Origin: a virus
Virus record (IMG/VR): IMGVR_UViG_3300046471_000042
Span: 1 to 30,210 of that record
Strand: one strand, 5' to 3'
DNA: 30,210 nt
Shown here: piece by piece, positions 9,871 to 29,857 of the stretch
Layout: each line of letters opens with the position of its first letter
How positions within the stretch are numbered: the stretch's first letter is position 1
Translations under genes and position numbers: made by a program
Notes under the pieces: model-generated
Database searches by the model: none
Told to the model about the DNA's origin: nothing
Seen by the model: only the letters and a program-made list of their open reading frames with translations

Positions 9871-10575
9871 CTAGCTCATCTCGGGTTGCATGAAGACCGA
9901 CGTCTCTTCGTCGTCGTAGGCCGAGAGCTGGCCGTATAGGAAGGCGGCCCGCTCCTCGATCTTGGCGGCGCCCTGAGGGTCGGCGATGTGGTTCTTGAAG
10001 AACGGCGTCAGGCGCGCGGCCAGGCCGTATTGGAGGACTTCCAGCCACTCCTGCGGCGTGTCGAAATCGTCGTCCAGGGCGTCGATGTCCTCGATCACCC
10101 GGAGGTAGGTGTAGGGGATGGTCACCGCCGCAGCGATGGTCGCGTTGGGGACCGGCCAGACATAGAGCGTGCGCGCCGCGCGCTGGGGGTCGAAGTAGGC
10201 CTCCGTCGCGTAGCCGATGGACAGCTTGTTGGCCTTGTCGAAGTACTCCTGACGGCTGATCATCGTCATCGGCGTGTCGTTCTGGCTGACGCCGGTTCCG
10301 GTCCTACGCCGCGCTGAGAGCACCTTGCGGGCCGCAGCTAGGGCGTAGGAGGCGGTCGACGCCAGCGGCGTTACCGAACCCTCCGACATCTGCCAGAGCT
10401 TCGGCTTCGGGTCGGCTCCCCACGTCTTCAGCATCAGGTTGGCCTGCGTCTTGGCCGTATCCATGTCCTCTTCGGCCGGCGTGTCGCCCATGGCGCAGGC
10501 CCCGACCATCACCAGGGCCGACGTAGCGATCTGGCGGAAGGTCTCGGTGAAGTCGCTCGAGCCGGAGGTGGTCAC
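9871..10575 (-). CDS. P22 gp4-like head-to-tail adaptor (packaged DNA stabilisation)
   Basis: 234 aa. The N-terminal half is helical (FRQIATSALVMVGACAMGDT, then TAKTQANLMLKTWGADPKPKLW), a pattern shared by P22 gp4-like connectors that dock under the portal. A middle section has an SRQEYFDKANK motif and aromatic beta strands (AARTLYVWPVPNA). The C-terminal helical part (EWLEVLQYGLAARLTPFFKN) is also typical of this family. It overlaps the upstream small gene by ATGA. Together with the gp10-like gene it argues for a short-tailed virion. Confidence 0.75.
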   Translation of the reverse strand: MTTSGSSDFTETFRQIATSALVMVGACAMGDTPAEEDMDTAKTQANLMLKTWGADPKPKLWQMSEGSVTPLASTASYALAAARKVLSARRRTGTGVSQNDTPMTMISRQEYFDKANKLSIGYATEAYFDPQRAARTLYVWPVPNATIAAAVTIPYTYLRVIEDIDALDDDFDTPQEWLEVLQYGLAARLTPFFKNHIADPQGAAKIEERAAFLYGQLSAYDDEETSVFMQPEMS

Positions 10576-10829
10576 AGGTCAGCCGGCGTGACTGAAGTGG
10601 GCGAACGGAAGGTCGCGGGCGCTTCGGGGCGAGCCCACGGCACGCGGCCTTCGTTCGTAACCCTGGGAGCTGCGCCCTCCTGCGGGTGCTTCTGGGCCTC
10701 CGAGCCGATGAACCGGCGATGCACGCGGTAGCCGCGTGAGTCGGTCACCATTTCGGAGGCCCAGAAGGTCATTCCGCTGAAGTCGCAGACGGCCTTCCAG
10801 TCGCCAGGACGAGCGCCGCTGGTGCTCAT
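10572..10829 (-). CDS. Small phage protein related to zinc-ribbon connectors (cysteines lost)
   Basis: 85 aa, with GDWKAVCDFSGMTFWASEMV near the N-terminus and then RGYRVHRRFIGSEAQKHPQE. Many phages encode a small protein after the capsid genes with the same skeleton (W-x-x-x-C-D-x-C-G-x-x-F-x-A/N-S/D-E, ending H-P-Q-E/D) in which four cysteines bind zinc. Here only the first cysteine of that set remains, the second being replaced by serine (CDFSG). It overlaps the beta-helix gene by one base (TGATG). It is likely a virion-associated protein of unknown detail. Confidence 0.6.
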   Translation of the reverse strand: MSTSGARPGDWKAVCDFSGMTFWASEMVTDSRGYRVHRRFIGSEAQKHPQEGAAPRVTNEGRVPWARPEAPATFRSPTSVTPADL

Positions 10830-11794
10830 CAGCTATCGACCGCCGGGATGACAAAGCCGGTGGCGCCCTTGACCCCGGTCACCCGGTTCTCGAAGAAGCC
10901 GAAGCCGACGTTGGCCGTGCAGATCAGGTCCGTGGTCGTGGTGAGCGTCTGGACGTAGTTGTTGTAGAACCAGCCGGTCGAGGTCGTGCCGCCGACGTTC
11001 ACCAGCGAGCCGCCGGCCGTGGTGGTGTTCGGGCGATAGGCCTTGTTGAACCCGATGTCGGCGTTGGTCAGGATGCCGGCCGTGGCGATCACGCCAGCCG
11101 CGACGTCGTTCTGCACCGCCCACTTGAGGTTGTTGCCCTTGAAGGTCAGCCGGTCGATGGTGTTGGCCGTCAGGACGGCGGTGTTGTTCGCCGTCACGCC
11201 GAGGTTGTCCACGACGTTGTTGCTGAAGGTCAGGCCGTCCGCGGTGTTGGCGGCGCCCGTGGTCTTCACGATGTTCAGGAAGTTGAGCACCGAGGACGTG
11301 TCCACGAAGTAGCAGTCCTCGACGGCGAAGTTCGCCGCGGTCGCCACCGTGAAGCACGCGGCGATCGACAGGAAGTTGGCCTTGAAGATGCAGTTCTTCA
11401 CGGCGCAGTTGGCCGCGCTCACCGGGATCGTCGCCGTGTTGGCGGTGTCCAGGGTGAAGGTCGGGCGCAGCGAGCCGGTGCCCAGGCCCACGATGGCGAC
11501 GCCGGCCGTGCTCATCGCGAACGAGGTCGCGTCCGAGATGGTCTCGGTGTGGCCGGCCTTGACCATGATGACATCGCCGCGCGAGGCGGTCGCCTGGGTC
11601 AGGGCAAAGGCCACGGTCGAGAAGGGGGACTGGAAGCCGCCCTTGTTGCCGTTGGAGCCGCCACGCTGCGACGCCATCAGCGCCGAGCCGTTGTAGACCC
11701 AGAAGATCCGGCCCGGATAGGCCGTGTGAATGGGGATTTCGCGGATCAGCAGGTTTGCGCCGACGCCGGTCGGATAGCTGTTAGGGCCAGCCAT
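10829..11794 (-). CDS. Right-handed beta-helix (pectin-lyase-like) virion protein
   Basis: 321 aa with repeating rungs rich in Asn, Thr and Val, such as NCAVKNCIFKANFLSIAACF, ANFAVEDCYFVDTSSVLNFL, GLTFSNNVVDNLGVTANNTA and RLTFKGNNLKW. These are spaced about 20-25 residues apart, as in parallel beta-helices. The first 60 residues (LIREIPIHTAYPGRIFWVYN) form a distinct head. No polysaccharide-lyase catalytic residues can be identified by eye. The ATG at 11794 has a strong AAAGGA Shine-Dalgarno. The gene is the first after a terminator that closes the capsid unit, so its level can be set separately. It may be a head fibre or decoration, or an adsorption protein. Confidence 0.75.
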   Translation of the reverse strand: MAGPNSYPTGVGANLLIREIPIHTAYPGRIFWVYNGSALMASQRGGSNGNKGGFQSPFSTVAFALTQATASRGDVIMVKAGHTETISDATSFAMSTAGVAIVGLGTGSLRPTFTLDTANTATIPVSAANCAVKNCIFKANFLSIAACFTVATAANFAVEDCYFVDTSSVLNFLNIVKTTGAANTADGLTFSNNVVDNLGVTANNTAVLTANTIDRLTFKGNNLKWAVQNDVAAGVIATAGILTNADIGFNKAYRPNTTTAGGSLVNVGGTTSTGWFYNNYVQTLTTTTDLICTANVGFGFFENRVTGVKGATGFVIPAVDS

Positions 11795-11852
11795 GGGGGA
11801 GTCCTTTCTCTGAACCGCTGTGCGGTCCGAATGGGAGGTGTTTCAGAGTTCG

Positions 11853-17637: not shown

Positions 17638-18984
17638 CTAGTACCCCGTGGACTCGTTGCGGCCGGCTTCGTCCCATTCCTGCGGAACATCGTCGTTCGC
17701 CCCGTACTCCTGGGGCTTGCCGATCGCGAAGGTGCGGAAGGCGTCCGCCGGGTCGCTCGCCCAGTCGTGGAGCGGTTGGTCCTTGTAGGCCTTCAGCTTC
17801 TCATCCCAGATCCGCCGATAGGACCGCAGCGCGTCGATCCCATGCGCGCACTTCTCAGCGTCGAACACGCAGATCGGGAGAACCTTGCGGACCTCGTTGA
17901 TGTCCGTCGCCACGCTCAGCGTCCGCGGCACGACCCGCACGTTCTTCAGGCCCATCCGGCGCAGCGTGTCGGCGATGCTGGCGGCCTCAGGGAGCGCCAG
18001 ACGCTTGTCCCCGCCGTCGTGGGGCAACAGGTGCTCACCGTAGACGTACGGCCTGCTGGTGATCTCCCTGGCGTACCAGTCGATGCCCGCCGTGGTGTTG
18101 GCGACGTAGTCGATAGCCGCCCAGCCCATCGGGGTCCGCTGCATGAACCAGATCACCGTCATGTCGTTCGCGCCGAGGTCCCAGGCCGTGTGAACCTGTC
18201 TCGCCGGATTGTACGGCACGCGCCCGATAGCGCCTTCAGCCTCCAGCTTGTCGATCACCTTGGCGTAGTAGGCGCCCGGAAGCGCCGCAGCCCACGAGCA
18301 CATGTACTCCTGCTCGTAGATCGCCTCGCCGTCCGTCTCGCCCCGTTCGGACAGCAACTCTGCCTTCTCGTTGGCGAGCTGCGCCGCGGTGAAGACGCCG
18401 GTCTTCTCAGCCGTCAGGTGCTCGGCGAACCACTCCTCCGAACCCTTGGCCATCTCGTACATGCGGTGCGCGTGGTTACGACCGCGCGGTGTGGTGATGA
18501 AGATCGACCAGCCGCCGTTCTCCAGCAAGATAGGCCGGATCAGCGACCAGGCCTGCGGGTCGCTCAGCGCCCACTCCGAGAAGACAACCCCGATCGGCGG
18601 CGTGCCCACCAGGGCGTCGTAGTTGTCCGAGCCGATGACCTGCCAAGTTGACCCGGTCTTGAACCGGATGAACATCTCGTCGTCGCGCGTGGCGTCCCTA
18701 AGCTCGGCGGGGAACGCGTCGTCTATCCGCCGGCGGCCGGTGTGCGGGTTGACCGCGTTCCAGATCGCCTTACGGGCTTGGTTCTGCTGGGGCAGCAGAT
18801 GCCAGTAGGTTCCGACCCGCTCATGAGCCGCGCAGGCCGTGAAGTGCAGCGCCAGGTCGTCCTTGCCATGCCGCCGCGGCCAGATGGCGATCGCTCGCTT
18901 CCCGCCGTTGTGCATGTAGCGCCAGAGCGGCTGCTGATAGTCCCTCGCCTGCCACTGGTGCGGTAGCTCGAGCGTTCGGCTCAT
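17638..18984 (-). CDS. terL: Terminase large subunit (packaging ATPase and nuclease)
   Basis: 448 aa. An N-terminal ATPase holds a Walker A-like motif WPRRHGKDD (about 35-43), a Walker B-like strand and acidic residue IGVVFSEWA (131-139) and the coupling motif ITT (163-165). The C-terminal RNase H-like nuclease has TAWDLGANDMT (first acidic residues about 269 and 273) and a final HDWASDPADAFR motif (406-417). It pumps and cuts genomic DNA at the portal. It overlaps the small terminase by ATGA. The C-terminal RNESTGY resembles the end of the next small protein. Assignment is firm. Confidence 0.93.
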   Translation of the reverse strand: MSRTLELPHQWQARDYQQPLWRYMHNGGKRAIAIWPRRHGKDDLALHFTACAAHERVGTYWHLLPQQNQARKAIWNAVNPHTGRRRIDDAFPAELRDATRDDEMFIRFKTGSTWQVIGSDNYDALVGTPPIGVVFSEWALSDPQAWSLIRPILLENGGWSIFITTPRGRNHAHRMYEMAKGSEEWFAEHLTAEKTGVFTAAQLANEKAELLSERGETDGEAIYEQEYMCSWAAALPGAYYAKVIDKLEAEGAIGRVPYNPARQVHTAWDLGANDMTVIWFMQRTPMGWAAIDYVANTTAGIDWYAREITSRPYVYGEHLLPHDGGDKRLALPEAASIADTLRRMGLKNVRVVPRTLSVATDINEVRKVLPICVFDAEKCAHGIDALRSYRRIWDEKLKAYKDQPLHDWASDPADAFRTFAIGKPQEYGANDDVPQEWDEAGRNESTGY

Positions 18985-19412
18985 CCGGGCTTGTTGATGA
19001 CGACCGTCAGCGGCGCGAGGTCGTCAGCCTGGCCGAGCGCCAGCTTGTCGCCGAAGCGCTTGGGGTCCCACTTCGACAGAAGCTTCATCCGAGTGTCGAT
19101 CTGCAGCTTGCGATGGCCGAGCATGTCGCCTTCGCGGACCTCGGTTTGACCCTCGGCCTTGGTCACGGTTTCCTGGCCCAGCAGCGGCGTGTCGGCGATC
19201 TCCAAACACTGTGCGGCCAGCATGTCGTAGCCGCTTTCGCGCGCGCGGGCGATGGCGGCGGAAAACTCTTCGTTCGCCGAAATCCAATCCCGCACCGTGC
19301 GATCGGACGGATATCCCTCATCCCGACAGATGACCGCCATCGGCTCGCCCAGCGCCAGCCTGTCGCAGATCTGATCAGCCAGGCCCTGAGTGAACTTGCT
19401 CGGCCGGCCCAT
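18981..19412 (-). CDS. terS: Terminase small subunit
   Basis: 143 aa, MGRPSKFTQGLADQICDRLA. This is the classic helix-turn-helix N-terminus of phage small terminases (GRPSKYT, then a DRTVRDWISANEEFSAAIAR segment, residues 37-56), followed by a helical oligomerisation part and KWDPKRFGDKLAL near the end. It recognises the packaging site and recruits TerL, whose gene it overlaps by ATGA. The ATG directly abuts the TAG of the small membrane-protein gene upstream. Confidence 0.88.
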   Translation of the reverse strand: MGRPSKFTQGLADQICDRLALGEPMAVICRDEGYPSDRTVRDWISANEEFSAAIARARESGYDMLAAQCLEIADTPLLGQETVTKAEGQTEVREGDMLGHRKLQIDTRMKLLSKWDPKRFGDKLALGQADDLAPLTVVINKPG

Positions 19413-19698: not shown

Positions 19699-20172
19699 CT
19701 ACCCGGTTCGTTCGGGGGCGTCAACAACCTCTAGTGCGGCGGATTGGTTCCGGCGCAAGATGCTGATTTGACCACCAGACTTGGTGTCATAGATCATGGC
19801 GATGCGGACAGCGTCGTCGGGCGTGGCTCCGGCCGCCATAGCACCCTGCGCGAACTCCGAGCCCGATCCCATGCAAAGCGTATCGTTGGCGGTTCTCTCC
19901 CATCCGCGCGGCGTGAGTAGCAGGATCTGATCCTCTGGCGTGATTATCGCGCCGTGGGTCGTTGCCTCGCCATCGGGCATCGTCGGCGGCTCGCCCTTCA
20001 TGCCGCGCCGGAACCAGTCGAGGAAGGCCTGACACGAACTCAGGCTACCAGACGTCGCGGCCAGGTAATCGCCGCGCTGCGCGATCTTGGTGCAGTAGCC
20101 GTCGCGGTTTGAGCCCCAGGTCGCGAGCGTGTCTGCCGCCAAAACCCCGCCCCTATAGGCCACGGTGGTCAC
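19699..20172 (-). CDS. HslV/proteasome-like Ntn hydrolase
   Basis: 157 aa starting MTTVAYRGGVLAADTLATWG. Removal of Met would expose an N-terminal threonine. Asp14 and Lys29 (TKI) sit where HslV and the proteasome beta subunit place their catalytic Asp17 and Lys33. A later GSGSEFAQGAMAAGATPDDA matches the GSG-x3-A-x2-A helix of HslV, and AVRIAMIYDTKSGGQ the region after it. The length is near that of HslV (about 175 aa). It probably forms an Ntn-fold peptidase. It overlaps the upstream gene by ATGA and lies just upstream of the packaging genes. Its substrate is unknown. Confidence 0.75.
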   Translation of the reverse strand: MTTVAYRGGVLAADTLATWGSNRDGYCTKIAQRGDYLAATSGSLSSCQAFLDWFRRGMKGEPPTMPDGEATTHGAIITPEDQILLLTPRGWERTANDTLCMGSGSEFAQGAMAAGATPDDAVRIAMIYDTKSGGQISILRRNQSAALEVVDAPERTG

Positions 20173-20726
20173 GCCGCCACCCTCCCCGGTTCCTGATAGT
20201 AGGCCCTCAGGCCCTCCAGAGCCGCCACAACGGCCTGTGTCTGTCGGTCCCTCGCATGGTAGCCCAGCCGCTCCATGACGCCGCGCCAGACCATCGCCCG
20301 GTCCTCCTCGATAGTCGCCACCATGAAGGCCTCGAGGATGGCCTTTGCGCCAGGTTCGACCGAGGCCAGAGCGCGGGCCACATCACGTCCGCCGCGGATC
20401 ATGCGATCGGTCACCAGCTCGGCGCAACCTCCCCCGCCATCGACGTAGCCGCCGAACGTCTCAGGCTTCCCGTCCAAGCCCTTCCAGGCCGCCCAGGACA
20501 GGCCCAGCGTGTATGCCGCGTCGTGGTGGTTGGGCGTGATCGTTCCCCGCTCCAGCAGCAGGCGGAAGACGTTGGCGCGGTAGGCGCTGACGATCCGGCC
20601 GACGTTGTCCACGGTGACAGTGGCGCCGGAGTTGGTGAGGCGCTTGCGCTCGGCCTCTCGCTCCAGCCTGGCGAGCATGGCCTTGGCGACGGCTGCGGGA
20701 TCTGCGGGCTTACGGCGGCGCGTCAT
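20169..20726 (-). CDS. Hypothetical protein (185 aa), basic N-terminus
   Basis: 185 aa. The basic N-terminus (MTRRRKPADPAAVAKAMLAR) continues into helices. The middle has VSAYRANVFRLLLERGTITP then NHHDAAYTLGLSWAAWKGL, and the C-terminus is helical (MVWRGVMERLGYHARDRQTQ). No family is recognised with confidence. The helical, basic character and its place in the chain of small regulators and DUF1376 could suit a DNA-binding role. TGATG couples it to the gene upstream and ATGA to the Ntn-hydrolase gene downstream. Confidence 0.7.
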   Translation of the reverse strand: MTRRRKPADPAAVAKAMLARLEREAERKRLTNSGATVTVDNVGRIVSAYRANVFRLLLERGTITPNHHDAAYTLGLSWAAWKGLDGKPETFGGYVDGGGGCAELVTDRMIRGGRDVARALASVEPGAKAILEAFMVATIEEDRAMVWRGVMERLGYHARDRQTQAVVAALEGLRAYYQEPGRVAA

Positions 20727-20980
20727 CAGGCAGTCTTCCTCTCGATGAAGTCCTGGGCCTTGGCGTCTTCAGCAGCGGCTTGGCGGGCTGCGTTTGGCGC
20801 GATCTGTTCGAGTTCGCTCATGGCGCGTGCTAGCGTGAACCAGATGCGGAAGGCGCGCTCGAGGCGCTCGGCGATCTCCTCCCTCGATGCGCCGGGGATT
20901 GCAGCAGCGTGGAGGTGGAAGCCGAGCATGGTGTCAGCCACAGCGGCAGTCTTGGCGGCTTGGGCGATGGCTTGCCTCAT
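20726..20980 (-). CDS. Small helical hypothetical protein (84 aa)
   Basis: 84 aa, MRQAIAQAAKTAAVADTMLG. The ATG at 20980 overlaps the preceding stop (ATGA, 20977-20980), which decides the start over the longer open frame. It is almost entirely helical, with AIPGASREEIAERLERAFRI and WFTLARAMSELEQIAPNAAR, and has no catalytic motif. It may be an accessory to the DUF1376 replication-like protein encoded before it. Function not recognised. Confidence 0.65.
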   Translation of the reverse strand: MRQAIAQAAKTAAVADTMLGFHLHAAAIPGASREEIAERLERAFRIWFTLARAMSELEQIAPNAARQAAAEDAKAQDFIERKTA

Positions 20981-21657
20981 GCTGCACGGTCCAGCACGAC
21001 GATGCCGAGGCTCAGCAGGACTGCCGCGGCCTCGCCTCGGATCTTCTTGGCGGTGTAGGGCCTGGGCGGGATCAAGGCCCGCTCCGGCACGTCCTGCCAG
21101 CCACACGGATCGATCCAGGTGCAAACCCAGTGGTCGTCCATCTTGGCGAGGAAGGCGTCCCTGACTTCCTTTGGTCCTGAAAATTCATTCTGCCCAGAGA
21201 GTGAAGAAGGCCTATTGGGGCCTTCTTCTTCTCTGGATGCGGGTTGCGGAGCAGCTTTTAAGCAGACTTTTTCGCCCGTTTTTGCCTGCTTAAATCCTGC
21301 TTGCGGGGTGCTTTTAGCAGCCTTTGCGCGCCCTCCAGCCGCAGCCCGCTCGGCGTAGAGCACCTTCTTCGCAGCCCAGCGCTCAAGCTCCGCGTCAATG
21401 CGCTTATGGCGCCAGTGGCCGAACTCGACGCGGAAGAAGCGAAGCAGCTTTTCGCGGTGCTTGCGCCAGGACTTGGCGTCCAGTCCGGTGATGGCCGCTA
21501 GGTCGCTGTCGTCGTCCACGGGCGGGCCGTCCACCCAGTACGACATGATCAGCAGGAGGTAGGCCCCGTGCTGCTCAGTGGTCAGCCGCGTGGTGTCCTT
21601 GAGGTAGTCGCCGATAACCAGCGGCATCCATGTGTCTGGTTTGGCGGCGTTGCTCAT
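20977..21657 (-). CDS. DUF1376 (YdaU-like) phage replication-associated protein
   Basis: 226 aa. Residues 8-80 carry the DUF1376 signature: WMPLVIGDYLKDTTRLTTEQ, then HGAYLLLIMSYWVDG, followed by DDDSDLAAITGLDAKSWRKH. The family is found in phage replication or early regions and its N-terminus is winged-helix-like. A basic linker (about 100-150) with repeated lysines follows, and the C-terminus ends VLLSLGIVVLDRAA. The ATG at 21657 is in ATGA overlap with the upstream gene. No helicase or loader gene is seen next to it. Confidence 0.8.
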   Translation of the reverse strand: MSNAAKPDTWMPLVIGDYLKDTTRLTTEQHGAYLLLIMSYWVDGPPVDDDSDLAAITGLDAKSWRKHREKLLRFFRVEFGHWRHKRIDAELERWAAKKVLYAERAAAGGRAKAAKSTPQAGFKQAKTGEKVCLKAAPQPASREEEGPNRPSSLSGQNEFSGPKEVRDAFLAKMDDHWVCTWIDPCGWQDVPERALIPPRPYTAKKIRGEAAAVLLSLGIVVLDRAA

Positions 21658-21854
21658 GCCAAGACCCTTAGCCTGGGCGCCGGAATCCGCTGACTGCGAC
21701 ACCTGACAAATTCGTCGTGACCGTCCCAGGTCGAGATCACGAACTGCGCCCACGTCTCACAGCAGCCGACGCGCGCCGCGATCTCTCGAACGGTCATGCC
21801 GCGGAGGTGGTGGAAGATGATGCGCGGAGCCTTGCCGCCCTGGCCGTAGCTCAT
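21654..21854 (-). CDS. Small helix-turn-helix-like protein (66 aa)
   Basis: 66 aa, MSYGQGGKAPRIIFHHLRGM. The central GMTVREIAARVGCCETWAQF followed by VISTWDGHDEFV has the helix-turn-helix spacing of small site-specific DNA-binding proteins. The C-terminus is basic (RCRSQRIPAPRLRVLA). It is joined to both neighbours by ATGA overlaps. The role could be a transcriptional or replication accessory. No family name can be given. Confidence 0.66.
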   Translation of the reverse strand: MSYGQGGKAPRIIFHHLRGMTVREIAARVGCCETWAQFVISTWDGHDEFVRCRSQRIPAPRLRVLA

Positions 21855-22237
21855 GCGGCATCCCTCGTACCCAGGGTGCGCCAGGACGCGATGTCGGCCT
21901 GCGTGTTGGGGTCGTTGCCGCCGACGATCTGCTCAGCCCTGTGCGCGCCATGCGCCCAGGCAAGGCGGGTGATGGTGTCGGCGTCGTAGGCGTCAGCGCC
22001 GGTGCGGAAGCACTTGGACGCGGCCTCCCGGCCCATGCCCCAGGTCAAGGCCACGCCATGGGCGGAACAGCCTGTCTCGGCCACGATGCGGAGGATAGCT
22101 CGGCGGCGTGCGGCGATGACCTCGTCAGACTGGCGCGAGCCGTTGCCGAGGATCTGATCCAGGGTGATTCCGGAGCGTCGGGCCTCGTCCGCCGCGATGC
22201 GGTTGACGACAGGTCGCGGAGGGCGACGGGGGTTCAT
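21851..22237 (-). CDS. DnaA domain IV-like DNA-binding protein
   Basis: 128 aa. The segment ITLDQILGNGSRQSDEVIAA (about 24-43) followed by RRRAILRIVAETGCSAHGVA and LTWGMGREAASKCF resembles the C-terminal DnaA domain: V-x-x-x-I-L-G/x-x-S-R, then A-R-x-x-A, a helix, and the signature with F-G-x-R. No ATPase part is present. Such stand-alone domains could bind DnaA-box-like sites and influence replication or transcription. The next gene upstream encodes GcrA (ATGA at 22234-22237). The similarity is by eye and moderate. Confidence 0.68.
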   Translation of the reverse strand: MNPRRPPRPVVNRIAADEARRSGITLDQILGNGSRQSDEVIAARRRAILRIVAETGCSAHGVALTWGMGREAASKCFRTGADAYDADTITRLAWAHGAHRAEQIVGGNDPNTQADIASWRTLGTRDAA

Positions 22238-22755
22238 GCGGCTAACCGGACGATGCGGCGACGCTCGCGCTTCTTGGCCGGCGTCACCTGCTGGTAGACG
22301 ACGGATTCACACGCCAGGCAGTAGATGCGGCGCTTGTCGGCAACCGTCTCAGTCGGGGCGCAGCAGGACAGCAGGCCGTCACCCTGGCCGATCGGGAAGG
22401 CGCACTGTCCCGGCCGGCGCTCTTCCCACGGGCGGGCGTTGGCGTAGTTGATCACCGGGGCCGGGGCCTTCGGCGCGCTGGCCCGCGGCGGCCTCGGCGA
22501 GGCCAGGAGGCGAGCACGAGCCGTTGGCTTAGCACGCTGGGGCTTCGCCACCCGCTGCAGGCCACGTGGCCCTGACGGAGACATGCGAACCTCGATCTCG
22601 CCGGCTAGGCGCAGCCTGTGAACCTTGCCGATGATGGCGCTACGGGTGTAGCCTCCCATCTCCTTGGCGATCTGTCCGCCAGACCAACCCTTGGTCCAGA
22701 GATCCTTGAGGCGTTCGATGTGCTCGGCGGGCCATGAGGCCTCGAAGGCGGCCAT
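22234..22755 (-). CDS. gcrA: GcrA-family cell cycle regulator
   Basis: 173 aa. Residues 5-48 (EASWPAEHIERLKDLWTKGW, then SGGQIAKEMGGYTRSAIIGK and VHRLRLAG) match the N-terminal helix-turn-helix of GcrA almost throughout. A basic, proline-rich linker leads to a C-terminal cysteine motif, GQCAFPIGQGDGLLSCCAPT then RRIYCLACESVVYQ, corresponding to the C-x-W/F-P-I-G-D...C-G...Y-C region. GcrA binds the RNA polymerase sigma-70 subunit and activates promoters carrying GANTC methylation in Caulobacter. The ATG at 22755, with a GGGGG Shine-Dalgarno, overlaps the preceding TGA. Confidence 0.88.
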   Translation of the reverse strand: MAAFEASWPAEHIERLKDLWTKGWSGGQIAKEMGGYTRSAIIGKVHRLRLAGEIEVRMSPSGPRGLQRVAKPQRAKPTARARLLASPRPPRASAPKAPAPVINYANARPWEERRPGQCAFPIGQGDGLLSCCAPTETVADKRRIYCLACESVVYQQVTPAKKRERRRIVRLAA

Positions 22756-23470: not shown

Positions 23471-23814
23471 GTTGAGCCTCGTGAAGACGGGAGTTGCAGA
23501 TGGAGGTTCAGCGGGACAGCAGGGCAGAGGCGCTTGAGGCCAGGGACAGGCTTCTGGACGCAATGGAAGGGTTGAGTACGGAGGACGGCCAAGCATGTTG
23601 GCGCGCCGCCCTCAGACAGAACAGACGAGCGAAGGAAGCCGACAGCGTTGGCGCGCTGTCTGGCTTCGTCGCCATGCAATGAGTGACCCCCAGAGCCAAC
23701 TGTCGGGCAGGCTCCAGGGGCCGCGCGCAGCGGTGACAAGGGGGCTCGTCGGGCTGCGCGCTCGCGCACCGCGGGCGGGGAGGCCAGAAGCGGTGCGGAT
23801 GGGAAATGGGTCAT
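23467..23814 (-). CDS. Alternative ORF linked by ATGA on both sides (115 aa), doubtful
   Basis: The minus frame from ATG 23814 to TGA 23467 overlaps the methyltransferase stop by ATGA and the next gene's start by ATGA, the same coupling used along this operon. The product (MTHFPSAPLLASPPAVRERA...) is rich in proline, serine and arginine and lacks a recognisable fold. Over 23500-23682 the plus strand holds a more protein-like ORF. Either gene, or neither, may be real. It is listed so that the double ATGA linkage is not lost. Confidence 0.25.
   Translation of the reverse strand: MTHFPSAPLLASPPAVRERAARRAPLSPLRAAPGACPTVGSGGHSLHGDEARQRANAVGFLRSSVLSEGGAPTCLAVLRTQPFHCVQKPVPGLKRLCPAVPLNLHLQLPSSRGST
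23500..23682 (+). CDS. Small helical hypothetical protein on the opposite strand (60 aa)
   Basis: 60 aa, MEVQRDSRAEALEARDRLLD. GGGAG sits six bases before the ATG at 23500, a good Shine-Dalgarno spacing. The sequence (DAMEGLSTEDGQACWRAALR) reads as an amphipathic acidic helix pair, and 42 of 59 codons after the ATG end in G or C by hand count. It lies on the plus strand between two minus-strand genes and conflicts with the antisense frame 23467-23814. Function unknown. A true gene is favoured but not certain. Confidence 0.45.
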   Translation: MEVQRDSRAEALEARDRLLDAMEGLSTEDGQACWRAALRQNRRAKEADSVGALSGFVAMQ

Positions 23815-24602
23815 GCGCAGGCCTCGGCTTCGAGGATGGCGCGGCCGATCAGTTCGGGGATCTGCGGGACTACGGCGTTTCCGAGGGTTCGCAGTCGGTC
23901 CACCCGATTGGGAAGCCCATGAGCCACTCGACAAACATTGGGCTCGTCGGCCCAACGTGGCCGTTCAGCTTCAGCCACCGATGCAACGTGTCCGGCGCCC
24001 GCCCCGATGCCTGCCGCTTGAGCGACATGCCGGGGGACTTCGCCCCGTCGCTCGCCCGCGGCGTGGGCAACCAGCCAGAGCCGCTGTCGAAGATGGGGCG
24101 CGCCGGCATTTCCAGCACCCACAATGAGCGTTTCGCAGGCGTAGCCGAGGGCTTCCAGCGCTGTGATAACCCGGTCGACGCCAGCAGTTGCGAGGCGATG
24201 GACATTCTCAACCAGCACCCATCCGGGCCGGGCAAGATCGACGATTCGGACGAGCTCAACCCAAAGGCCGGATCGATCTCCATCAAGTCCCGCTGCGTCG
24301 GTTCCGCGGCGGGCCTGGCTGACGTCCTGACAGGGGAAGCCTCCGCAGACGACGTCCACGGGACCCACGGCGGCGACCTGTTCTCGGTCCAAGGAACGAA
24401 TGTCTCGAACAATGGGCACCTCCGGCCAATGCTTCGCCAGCACCCGCCGGCAGAACGGGTCGATCTCGCAGAACGCGACAGTCTTGAAGCCTCCTGTCCG
24501 CTCAAGGCCGAGGTCGAACCCGCCGATGCCGGCGAACAGGCTGAGGACGCGAAGCTGCGGCTTGGCGTGGGTCGATGGGGACAGATGACTGGAGGAACCC
24601 AT
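23811..24602 (-). CDS. C5-cytosine DNA methyltransferase
   Basis: 263 aa with the ordered motifs of the family: motif I LFAGIGGFDLG (22-32), motif IV GGFPCQDVS with catalytic Cys91 (87-95), motif VI VLVENV (129-134), motif VIII QRLWLVAHA (173-181) and motif X GNAVVPQI (241-248). The target-recognition region between VIII and X is only about 60 residues, shorter than in most stand-alone enzymes, so the target is probably short. No restriction endonuclease gene is adjacent, suggesting self-protection or regulation rather than restriction-modification. The start ATG at 24602 is preceded by an 8-base G run that can act as Shine-Dalgarno. Confidence 0.92.
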   Translation of the reverse strand: MGSSSHLSPSTHAKPQLRVLSLFAGIGGFDLGLERTGGFKTVAFCEIDPFCRRVLAKHWPEVPIVRDIRSLDREQVAAVGPVDVVCGGFPCQDVSQARRGTDAAGLDGDRSGLWVELVRIVDLARPGWVLVENVHRLATAGVDRVITALEALGYACETLIVGAGNAGAPHLRQRLWLVAHAAGERRGEVPRHVAQAAGIGAGAGHVASVAEAERPRWADEPNVCRVAHGLPNRVDRLRTLGNAVVPQIPELIGRAILEAEACA

Positions 24603-25057: not shown

Positions 25058-25279
25058 TCAGGCGGCCCGGCGCTCGGAGGCCAGTTCCACCAGCTTCTCA
25101 ACCGTGATGTCGTGACGGCCTCGCTCGGCTGCCAGTTCCGCGATCTTCGGGAACCAAGAGACCGCGATGGACTCGCGCTTGCGCGCCGCCCGGCCGGTGT
25201 TCGGGTCCATGCCGATCGCCCGGCTGAACTTCGTGGCGCCGCCCAAAGCGTCGATGACCTCGGAGAACGAATTGACCAT
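25058..25279 (-). CDS. Small Cro/carph-isopro-like regulator, leftward
   Basis: 73 aa from ATG 25279: MVNSFSEVIDALGGATKFSR, then AIGMDPNTGRAARKRESIAV and SWFPKIAELAAERGRHDITV. The order (IIxALGG-x-x-x-x-A-R, a basic recognition helix, W-F/W-x-x-I, then a helix ending EKLVEL) is that of short phage DNA-binding regulators of the Cro or carph-isopro type. It diverges from the XRE gene across an operator-rich gap. A -35/-10 pair (25309-25314, 25286-25291) predicts transcription starting at or next to the ATG. The longer upstream frame (to 25390) would run through the operators and into the divergent XRE gene, so it was not used. Confidence 0.75.
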   Translation of the reverse strand: MVNSFSEVIDALGGATKFSRAIGMDPNTGRAARKRESIAVSWFPKIAELAAERGRHDITVEKLVELASERRAA

Positions 25280-25285
25280 TCCCTT

Positions 25286-25314
25286 TAGGTACCCTACGTA
25301 CCCAAAGACGTCAA
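25286..25314 (-). promoter_or_regulatory. Leftward promoter, possibly leaderless
   Basis: On the minus strand TTGACG (25314-25309) and TACCTA (25291-25286) are 17 bp apart. The spacer contains TTGGGTAC (25305-25298), and a second GGGTAC (25294-25289) overlaps the -10. The expected start site is around 25279-25280, at the regulator's ATG, so the message would have little or no leader. Only the -35 is a strong match; the -10 shares just TA with the consensus. Confidence 0.5.
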
Positions 25315-25341
25315 CACCCCATGTACCCAATCGGTGGGTAC
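25289..25341. promoter_or_regulatory. Operator array of GTACCC(A) motifs between divergent regulators
   Basis: GTACCC at 25289-25294, GTACCCAA at 25298-25305, and a palindrome GTACCCAATCGGTGGGTAC at 25323-25341 whose arms GTACCCA/TGGGTAC are perfect 7-bp inverted repeats. A TTGACC (25272-25277), 17 bp before TACGTA (25295-25300), could be the rightward promoter for the XRE gene, with motifs over its -10. The arrangement resembles a lambdoid operator region, and a regulator encoded on either side is the likely binder. Confidence 0.65.
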
Positions 25342-25352
25342 GATCCGGGGCC

Positions 25353-25670
25353 ATGACAAAGACCGCGATCTCCCCGCCAGACCTGACCACTCAAGCCGGC
25401 CGTATCCGCTGGGCGCGCGAGAACATGAAGTTCACGTCAGCCAGGGCGGCGGCCGAGAAGTTCGAGTGGAACGAGAACACCTACAAGAGCCACGAGCAGG
25501 GCATCCGAGGGAAGGACGGCATCAAGCCGCGCACCCTGGAGAAGTACGCCCGCGCGTTCGGGGTCTCTGCGGAGTGGCTGGCCTTCGGGCGCGGCGGTCA
25601 CGAGCGCAAGGGCGATGACCCGGTCGAGATGGCCCGCGAGCTGCTGCGCGCCATGGAAAAGCGCGGCTGA
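25353..25670 (+). CDS. XRE-family helix-turn-helix regulator
   Basis: 105 aa from ATG 25353. Residues 12-75 carry an XRE helix-turn-helix: GRIRWARENMKFTSARAAAE, then KFEWNENTYKSHEQGIRGKD and RTLEKYARAFGVSAEWLAFG (the L-x-x-I/Y-A-x-x-F/L-G-V-S-x-x-W-L signature). It has no C-terminal LexA-like protease domain, so SOS-type self-cleavage is unlikely. It diverges from the smaller regulator over the operator array. The longer frame upstream starts inside the neighbour and the operators, so the start at 25353 is preferred. Confidence 0.82.
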   Translation: MTKTAISPPDLTTQAGRIRWARENMKFTSARAAAEKFEWNENTYKSHEQGIRGKDGIKPRTLEKYARAFGVSAEWLAFGRGGHERKGDDPVEMARELLRAMEKRG

Positions 25671-25720
25671 TCTAACCCCCTGAGTCGGACCGTCCGCACC
25701 TAGCGGCGCAATTTTCTGCG

Positions 25721-25768
25721 CGCATTGGGTACGTTTTGTGTTGACGCATTGGGTACACGGTGTACTGT
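25721..25768 (+). promoter_or_regulatory. Rightward early promoter with repeated operator
   Basis: CGCATTGGGTAC occurs twice, at 25721-25732 and 25745-25756, 24 bp apart. TTGACG (25741-25746) and TACTGT (25763-25768) are 16 bp apart, and the second motif lies between them. A perfect 13-bp palindrome GTACACGGTGTAC (25753-25765) extends the motif into the -10. A repressor bound here would block RNA polymerase at the promoter of the rightward operon, whose first ATG is at 25796 with a GGAG at 25782. Confidence 0.65.
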
Positions 25769-29394: not shown

Positions 29395-29857
29395 ATCTGA
29401 ACCTACCATAAGAGCCGAACCAGACCTCAAGGGACTGCTTGAGCGGGTAGAAGGTGCGAGCGGGCCGGACGCGGTTCTGGATCGACTGATCGTGGAGGCC
29501 TTGCAGGCTTCGGGACTGTGCCGCGAATGCTGGGGCCTAGGCGGATACAATCGAGGCGACGGGCACCGGTGTGAGCGATGTAATCGAACCTACGCCGATC
29601 CTGTCACCGACAGCCTAGACGCCGCCCTGGCCCTCGTGGATCGTGTGTTGCCGGAGATGGGCGTGGCGCTGGGGACGTGCTTCCTCGGCTCCTCTGGCCC
29701 TCGCCAACCTTGGGCAACCCTATCCATCCCGTCAAACGAGCGGGTGGCGACCGCGACCGGCTACCGGTTCAAGCACCCGACCTACCTGGGTGACGCCGCG
29801 ACCCCGGCGCTTTCCGTGCTCGCCGCCCTCCTCCGCGCAAAGGCGTCTCAGTCATGA
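29387..29857 (+). CDS. Phage ABA-sandwich-like protein with a zinc-binding motif
   Basis: 156 aa starting MSESEPTIRAEPDLKGLLER. Residues 45-65 (CRECWGLGGYNRGDGHRCER and C) form a CxxC...CxxC zinc site. The C-terminal half (DAALALVDRVLPEMGVALGT, then ATGYRFKHPTYLGDAATPAL and SVLAALLRAKA) resembles the phage ABA sandwich domain, whose members are small early proteins of unknown role. An alternative ATG lies at 29366. It overlaps the nuclease gene by 8 bp and the next gene by ATGA. Confidence 0.68.
   Translation: MSESEPTIRAEPDLKGLLERVEGASGPDAVLDRLIVEALQASGLCRECWGLGGYNRGDGHRCERCNRTYADPVTDSLDAALALVDRVLPEMGVALGTCFLGSSGPRQPWATLSIPSNERVATATGYRFKHPTYLGDAATPALSVLAALLRAKASQS

Follow-up and report, generated by a model that had tools for sequence, protein, structure and literature searches.

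The window analysed here is an entire virus record of 30,210 bases, with a G+C content of 66%, which may be a partial phage genome; no tRNA genes were found along its 30,210 bases. The phage is podovirus-like, with control of the cro/repressor type, and the sole GcrA match in the record is the gene gcrA. The features needed for the discussion below are as follows.

17638–18984, minus strand: terminase large subunit (phrog_2472, phrog_2; 74% to a Sphingomonas aquatilis prophage), the query used for relatives.
18981–19412, minus strand: terminase small subunit (PF20901, 109 bits).
20977–21753, minus strand: DUF1376/primosomal (replisome organiser-type) protein, downstream of gcrA (PF07120, 66 bits; phrog_3992).
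22234–22755, minus strand: the GcrA-family gene, product P0001 (PF07750; match to 7YE1; AlphaFold2 model compared with 5YIU/5YIV and 5YIX).
22291–22443, minus strand: predicted sigma-interacting-type domain, residues 105–155, with C118, C131, C146 and C149 (superposition on 5YIX_B).
22606–22740, minus strand: predicted DNA-binding domain, residues 6–50, three helices, recognition helix YTRSAIIGKVHR (superposition on 5YIV_A).
23811–24602, minus strand: cytosine-5 DNA methyltransferase, ~1 kb upstream of gcrA in the same operon (PF00145, 133.7 bits; TIGR00675).
25280–25352, no strand assigned: control region between the cro-like and repressor genes, with two ATTGGGTACR operators (operator scan and sequence).
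25681–25687, plus strand: TGAGTCG, the sole intergenic GANTC site of the YGAKTCG type, ~60 bp upstream of the TTGACG at 25740.
25740–25767, plus strand: rightward promoter-like element TTGACG-N16-TACTGT, read by eye; one operator overlaps it at 25748 and another precedes it at 25724.

Leftward on the minus strand, a cro-like gene (25058–25279) is followed by an ORF of 150 aa, the cytosine-5 methyltransferase gene, small ORFs and gcrA. After gcrA come a 128-aa ORF, a small HTH ORF, the DUF1376 gene, an HslV-like gene, the small and large terminase genes, the portal gene and virion genes. The rightward genes start with a repressor-like gene (25353–25670) and continue with Gp157/Gam-like, RecT and NinB genes. 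The original prediction had described gcrA as embedded in a phage operon, and the consecutive order of the methyltransferase, gcrA, DUF1376, terminase and portal genes on the minus strand bears this out. The HslV-like peptidase gene (19699–20172, minus strand; phrog_1040, E 1.5e-35) separates the replication genes from the terminase. The rightward operon ends with 459 bases (29395–29853) that carry no called gene and have a GANTC at their edge (29393).

Four ATTGGGTACR operators, one of them mismatched, were found, a count reached by no shuffle: two are located between the cro-like and repressor genes, two ahead of the rightward operon, and none elsewhere. These repeats, within 25297–25331 and 25724–25757, are likely repressor operators. 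An ORF at 25167–25670 was dropped as the whole repressor, because its upstream part overlaps the cro-like gene, and the start is more likely at 25353. The consensus promoter scan of the window yielded nothing above shuffles and did not pick up the element at 25740. The layout of the control region and the gene order therefore place gcrA on a leftward transcript with the replication genes, leading to the terminase and virion genes. The 25280–25352 region would be the likely source of this transcript, and the gene order suggests that gcrA is expressed early.

The gcrA ORF runs from ATG to stop and encodes 173 aa; it is intact and its composition is coding-like. The Pfam profile PF07750 matches the product with 74.9 bits (E 1.2e-20; cut-off 26.9) over residues 7–161, corresponding to profile positions 2–152 of 155, and thus covers both model ends. 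Among solved structures, phmmer matched full-length Caulobacter GcrA (7YE1, E 3.6e-15) and the Caulobacter GcrA DNA-binding domain (E 7.5e-12). Judged from the sequence, this family match far exceeds chance, and the GcrA-family gene that had been proposed at 22234–22755 is confirmed by both searches. The NCBIfam equivalog model NF050816 (GcrA sigma-70 cofactor) gave 68 bits, under its 280-bit cut-off, and for this reason we do not call the phage protein an equivalog of chromosomal GcrA. The identity to any host GcrA is low (27–37%), which, together with the NF050816 score, indicates that the function of the phage protein may have drifted.

The AlphaFold2 model, built from an alignment of 45 phage sequences, has pLDDT values of ~95 in the DNA-binding domain and ~90–97 over most of the C-terminal domain; the linker is weak. 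The helices predicted for the DNA-binding domain (residues 10–21, 26–33 and 38–47; pLDDT ~95) superpose with the rest of this domain on the same domain of Caulobacter GcrA in 5YIV_A (Z 8.3, rmsd 1.0 over 45 residues, 58% identity) and 5YIU (Z 8.7), in agreement with the intact helix-turn-helix claimed in the original prediction. Residues 105–155 superpose on 5YIX_B (Z 5.2, rmsd 1.9 over 46 of 48 residues, 24% identity), a structure of the sigma-interacting domain determined together with sigma-70 region 2; Foldseek matched the C-terminal domain to 5YIX with a probability of 0.80. The 5YIX_B match has a moderate Z over a small domain; as the PF07750 profile also spans this part, we took both domains as present. 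The phage GcrA is thus predicted to have a DNA-binding domain of three helices at its N-terminus, joined by a long linker to a sigma-interacting-type domain at its C-terminus. Structure prediction, which had been suggested as a check, thus matched both GcrA domains.

Alignment with host GcrA, the second such check, was made for the window protein with 27 chromosomal and 83 phage GcrAs, and revealed substitutions at positions 36, 39, 120 and 149. Positions 118, 131 and 146 are Cys in all 27 chromosomal GcrAs and in all but one or two of the 83 phage proteins, and the window protein retains C118, C131 and C146. At position 149, where all 27 chromosomal and 76 phage GcrAs have His, the window protein has Cys, as do six of the 83 other phage homologs. 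The C-terminal cysteine region, previously described as intact, is thus kept at its three cysteines and changed from His to Cys149 at the fourth position. The ligand-like positions are conserved across the 83 phage homologs, the GcrA pattern being CxWP, FC and YCxxH; residue 120 of the window protein is Phe in place of Trp. Since position 149 admits only His or Cys, as a metal site would, the four metal-ligand-like residues of the C-terminal domain may bind zinc. In the recognition helix, residue 39 is Asn in 27 of 27 chromosomal GcrAs and Ser in the window protein and 15 of the 83 phage homologs, and residues 36 and 39 of the window protein both differ from all 27 chromosomal sequences.

Queried alone against viral and genome contigs, the window protein gave no relative. 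An alignment-based scan, for which a narrower GcrA alignment was used, the broad one being too diverse, detected relatives in 160 viral contigs, of which 80 were kept. Chromosomal-type GcrA is matched by 34 records of annotated phages, most of them phiCbK-like. In the tree, the window protein falls among phage proteins bearing a CA[FY]P...SCC...YC C-terminus (L136, L137, L139, L138/L140/L141 and L148/L151/L153), apart from host sequences; the branches are long, the support at the inner forks is not strong (SH-aLRT 82–91) and the deep support is weak. This group contains the nearest relatives of the window protein (43% to L136, with the SCC motif in common). Its members keep His as the fourth ligand-like residue and are mostly without a cytosine methyltransferase, whereas the window protein has Cys149 and its phage encodes such an enzyme. 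As in the window, gcrA lies upstream of replication genes in this group: a Toprim/AAA_25 or DnaB protein follows it in L136, L139, L148 and L153, with few small ORFs between at most, and a helicase in L137. In L142, a sliding clamp follows gcrA. The L153 terminase is 74% identical to that of the window and lies 6 kb downstream of its gcrA on the same strand, and L136 has a counterpart of the window gene 20169–20726 at 60%. Of 50 GcrA phages, 13 have a DUF1376 gene, always on the strand of gcrA and nearly always downstream of it.

Within the terminase clade, gcrA is not universal. L014 was the only one of the relatives examined first with a Pfam GcrA match over the cut-off in this slot, and L006, L009 and L031 have weak HTH-only GcrA-like matches upstream of the terminase. 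The L014 gene (5558–6256), upstream of a related terminase, encodes a GcrA-type protein with an extra HTH-like segment before the C-terminal domain. In L214, an ORF of 614 aa (9989–11833) has an N-terminal GcrA domain and then tandem VADPR-containing segments, with no second Pfam family; it is either a fusion or a frameshifted neighbour.

Caulobacter crescentus GcrA (5YIU/5YIV, 5YIX, 7YE1) shares with the window protein the two-domain plan and long linker, a DNA-binding domain at 58% identity, and a sigma-interacting domain that superposes on the C-terminal domain. The window protein differs in having Ser39 for Asn, Phe120 for Trp and Cys149 for His, in being phage-encoded beside replication genes, and in scoring under the NCBIfam equivalog cut-off. 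With Caulobacteraceae GcrA orthologs, the overall identity is just 34–37%. Descriptions of phage GcrA go back to 2012 (PMC3556154), a precedent absent from the original prediction. The phages of phiCbK gp222 and its relatives likewise combine a full-length GcrA, an alphaproteobacterial host and GANTC avoidance (PMC3556154). However, phiCbK is a 215-kb siphophage, whereas the window phage is podovirus-like with cro/repressor-type control, and the two types of GcrA lie in different parts of the tree. A GcrA cell cycle regulator is also annotated in Agrobacterium phage Atu_ph08, cyanophage Pam5, phiLM21-like prophages and uncultured Caudovirales, which are of phage types other than that of the window, and many further database entries exist. 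Phage GcrA is already known, and the window protein adds a member with a divergent C-terminal motif common to a phage group.

GANTC occurs 22 times in the window against 136 expected from dinucleotides (observed/expected 0.16), and is by far the most avoided of the 16 XYNY'X' palindromes, the next lowest being at 0.60. Under synonymous-codon shuffling within genes, a stricter control than the dinucleotide expectation, 16 sites were observed against 39.7 ± 4.7 expected (z −5.0), and five other palindromes stayed within ~2.3 sd. Among relatives with the same terminase, the GANTC ratios are 0.06–0.61 in alphaproteobacterial prophages and 0.92–1.39 in beta-, gamma- and deltaproteobacterial relatives. 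Like the window, the former avoid GANTC, unlike the latter, and this makes the host an alphaproteobacterium of the CcrM type. The alphaproteobacterial relatives avoid GANTC alike with and without GcrA, and the avoidance therefore reflects host CcrM-type methylation, not the phage GcrA. The nearest named terminases belong to prophages of two Sphingomonadales, Sphingomonas aquatilis (74%) and Alteraurantiacibacter (72%), and the host is probably a Sphingomonas relative. Two phages with a recorded cyanobacterial host, Synechococcus phage Yong-M4-211 (L219) and Ssp-JY42 (L002), carry a full GcrA; their GANTC ratios (0.20 and 0.29) are the lowest of the 16 palindromes, as in alphaproteobacterial phages, and the recorded host may reflect a mixed-culture origin.

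The family, domains, operon position and host type are given by sequence and structure prediction. Beyond these, the proposed mechanism involves putative sigma binding, a presumed preference for methylated GANTC, hypothetical targets and probable timing. In the best-supported reading, to which we give roughly an even chance, the phage GcrA would be a sigma-70 cofactor that is made early, works with host CcrM marks at promoters of the host and favours replication. The gcrA product would be made early from the cro-side promoter and would bind the host's housekeeping sigma factor at region 2, taking RNA polymerase to host promoters bearing CcrM-methylated GANTC; the host S-phase and replication gene programme would thereby be kept active during phage replication. 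Action via the host sigma-70 is plausible because the predicted model matches the solved sigma-binding domain. A host with GANTC biology and the recurrent position of gcrA beside replication genes speak for this reading; the low identity to host GcrAs, the NF050816 score and the substitutions at residues 39, 120 and 149 speak against it. The methyl mark would be supplied by the host CcrM, since no match to an N6/N4 or Dam-type adenine methyltransferase was found in the window, although the record may be a fragment. A phage-encoded GcrA/CcrM pair is not supported, as a CcrM-type adenine methyltransferase was not found in the window. Host GcrA exerts its effect on m6A-bearing promoters by way of sigma region 2 (PMC7403470, PMC3667746), and the same proposal, with the host replication programme kept active, was made for phiCbK gp222 (PMC3556154).

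Another possibility, which we hold to be rather unlikely, would be that the phage GcrA activates promoters of the phage itself, for example at the replication-to-late step, through GANTC or through another sequence after a change in the DNA-binding domain. The location of gcrA between early control and the terminase and virion genes would fit this explanation, as would the single YGAKTCG site ahead of the rightward operon, the residues at 36 and 39, unlike those of all aligned chromosomal GcrAs, and the weak GcrA-like HTH proteins upstream of the terminase in L006, L009 and L031. A 26-gene prophage operon in Brevundimonas subvibrioides shows GcrA-dependent expression (PMC7987155), and because of this precedent the use of phage promoters may occur, above all with a changed DNA target. 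However, the window has three YGAKTCG-type sites, and the one that is intergenic, at 25681, is ~60 bp away from the −35 of the single rightward promoter that could be recognised, on its upstream side, and thus beyond the −40 to +40 window by which the C. crescentus GcrA regulon was defined (PMC7987155). GANTC was found neither in the 25280–25352 control region nor in the 23597–23810 gap, and the mapping of GANTC near phage promoters, which had also been suggested as a check, found none in a recognisable core promoter of the window. We also considered and rejected a late promoter that would depend on GANTC ahead of the terminase, the sites that separate gcrA from the terminase gene (22166 and 21683) being inside ORFs.

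A comparison across phages also argues against phage promoters as targets. For 75 loci of GcrA phages, the intergenic-to-coding ratio of GANTC, with both terms taken as observed over expected, is 1.63; 43 alphaproteobacterial relatives that lack a full GcrA give 1.62, and the group closest to the window phage gives 1.06. The intergenic counts are approximate, because the shadow-ORF choices of our simple gene caller, corrected by hand over the methyltransferase in the window, remain in the other loci. Such errors are expected to be equal for GcrA and non-GcrA loci. A published motif survey found GcrA sites in phages without positional asymmetry (PMC9437464). The idea that the phage brings its own promoters under methylation-dependent control through GANTC finds no support in the avoidance of GANTC, the distance of the 25681 site, the lack of an adenine methyltransferase match in the window and the near-identical ratios. 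GANTC placement shows no trace of GcrA carriage, and the protein is therefore more likely to act on promoters of the host, or on a DNA target that has changed.

The SCC-type group has an altered C-terminal motif and, in some members, Ser39 in the recognition helix. It is conceivable, albeit improbable, that this group constitutes a phage-dedicated sigma-70 cofactor, which would recognise a sequence other than methyl-GANTC and time the passage from early to replication or late transcription. We also find it hard to favour a purely competitive role, in which the C-terminal domain would occupy region 2 of the host sigma-70 without activation, displace the host GcrA and freeze the cell cycle. The confidently predicted sigma-interacting-type domain and the recognition-helix substitution absent from the 27 chromosomal GcrAs are compatible with such a competitor, but the DNA-binding domain is well preserved (58% identity to 5YIV), which a pure decoy would not need, and Ser39 recurs in 15 of the 83 phage homologs.

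The cytosine-5 methyltransferase gene ~1 kb upstream in the same operon could suggest that the phage GcrA reads cytosine methylation from the phage's own enzyme, but a C5 methyltransferase is present in only 15 of 50 GcrA phages and is rare among the records of the closest group, and with a pairing so inconstant we give this explanation very little credence. A pairing of GcrA and methyltransferase genes as a rule was rejected, PF01555 being found in 13 and PF00145 in 15 of the 50 records. It is just as hard to believe that gcrA was captured from a host and now does little: the single-protein scans gave no close relative, but the ORF is intact and coding-like, all domains and ligand-like positions are kept, and the protein groups with phage proteins apart from host sequences, with weak deep support.

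To conclude, GANTC avoidance under the synonymous-codon control is a usable marker of phages whose alphaproteobacterial hosts carry CcrM. The proposal that phage GcrA drives infected cells toward replication dates from 2012, and in the papers cited here its targets, be they host or phage promoters, are at the stage of proposals. Our analysis gives a first sequence-based answer on these targets, which favours promoters of the host or an altered DNA target.
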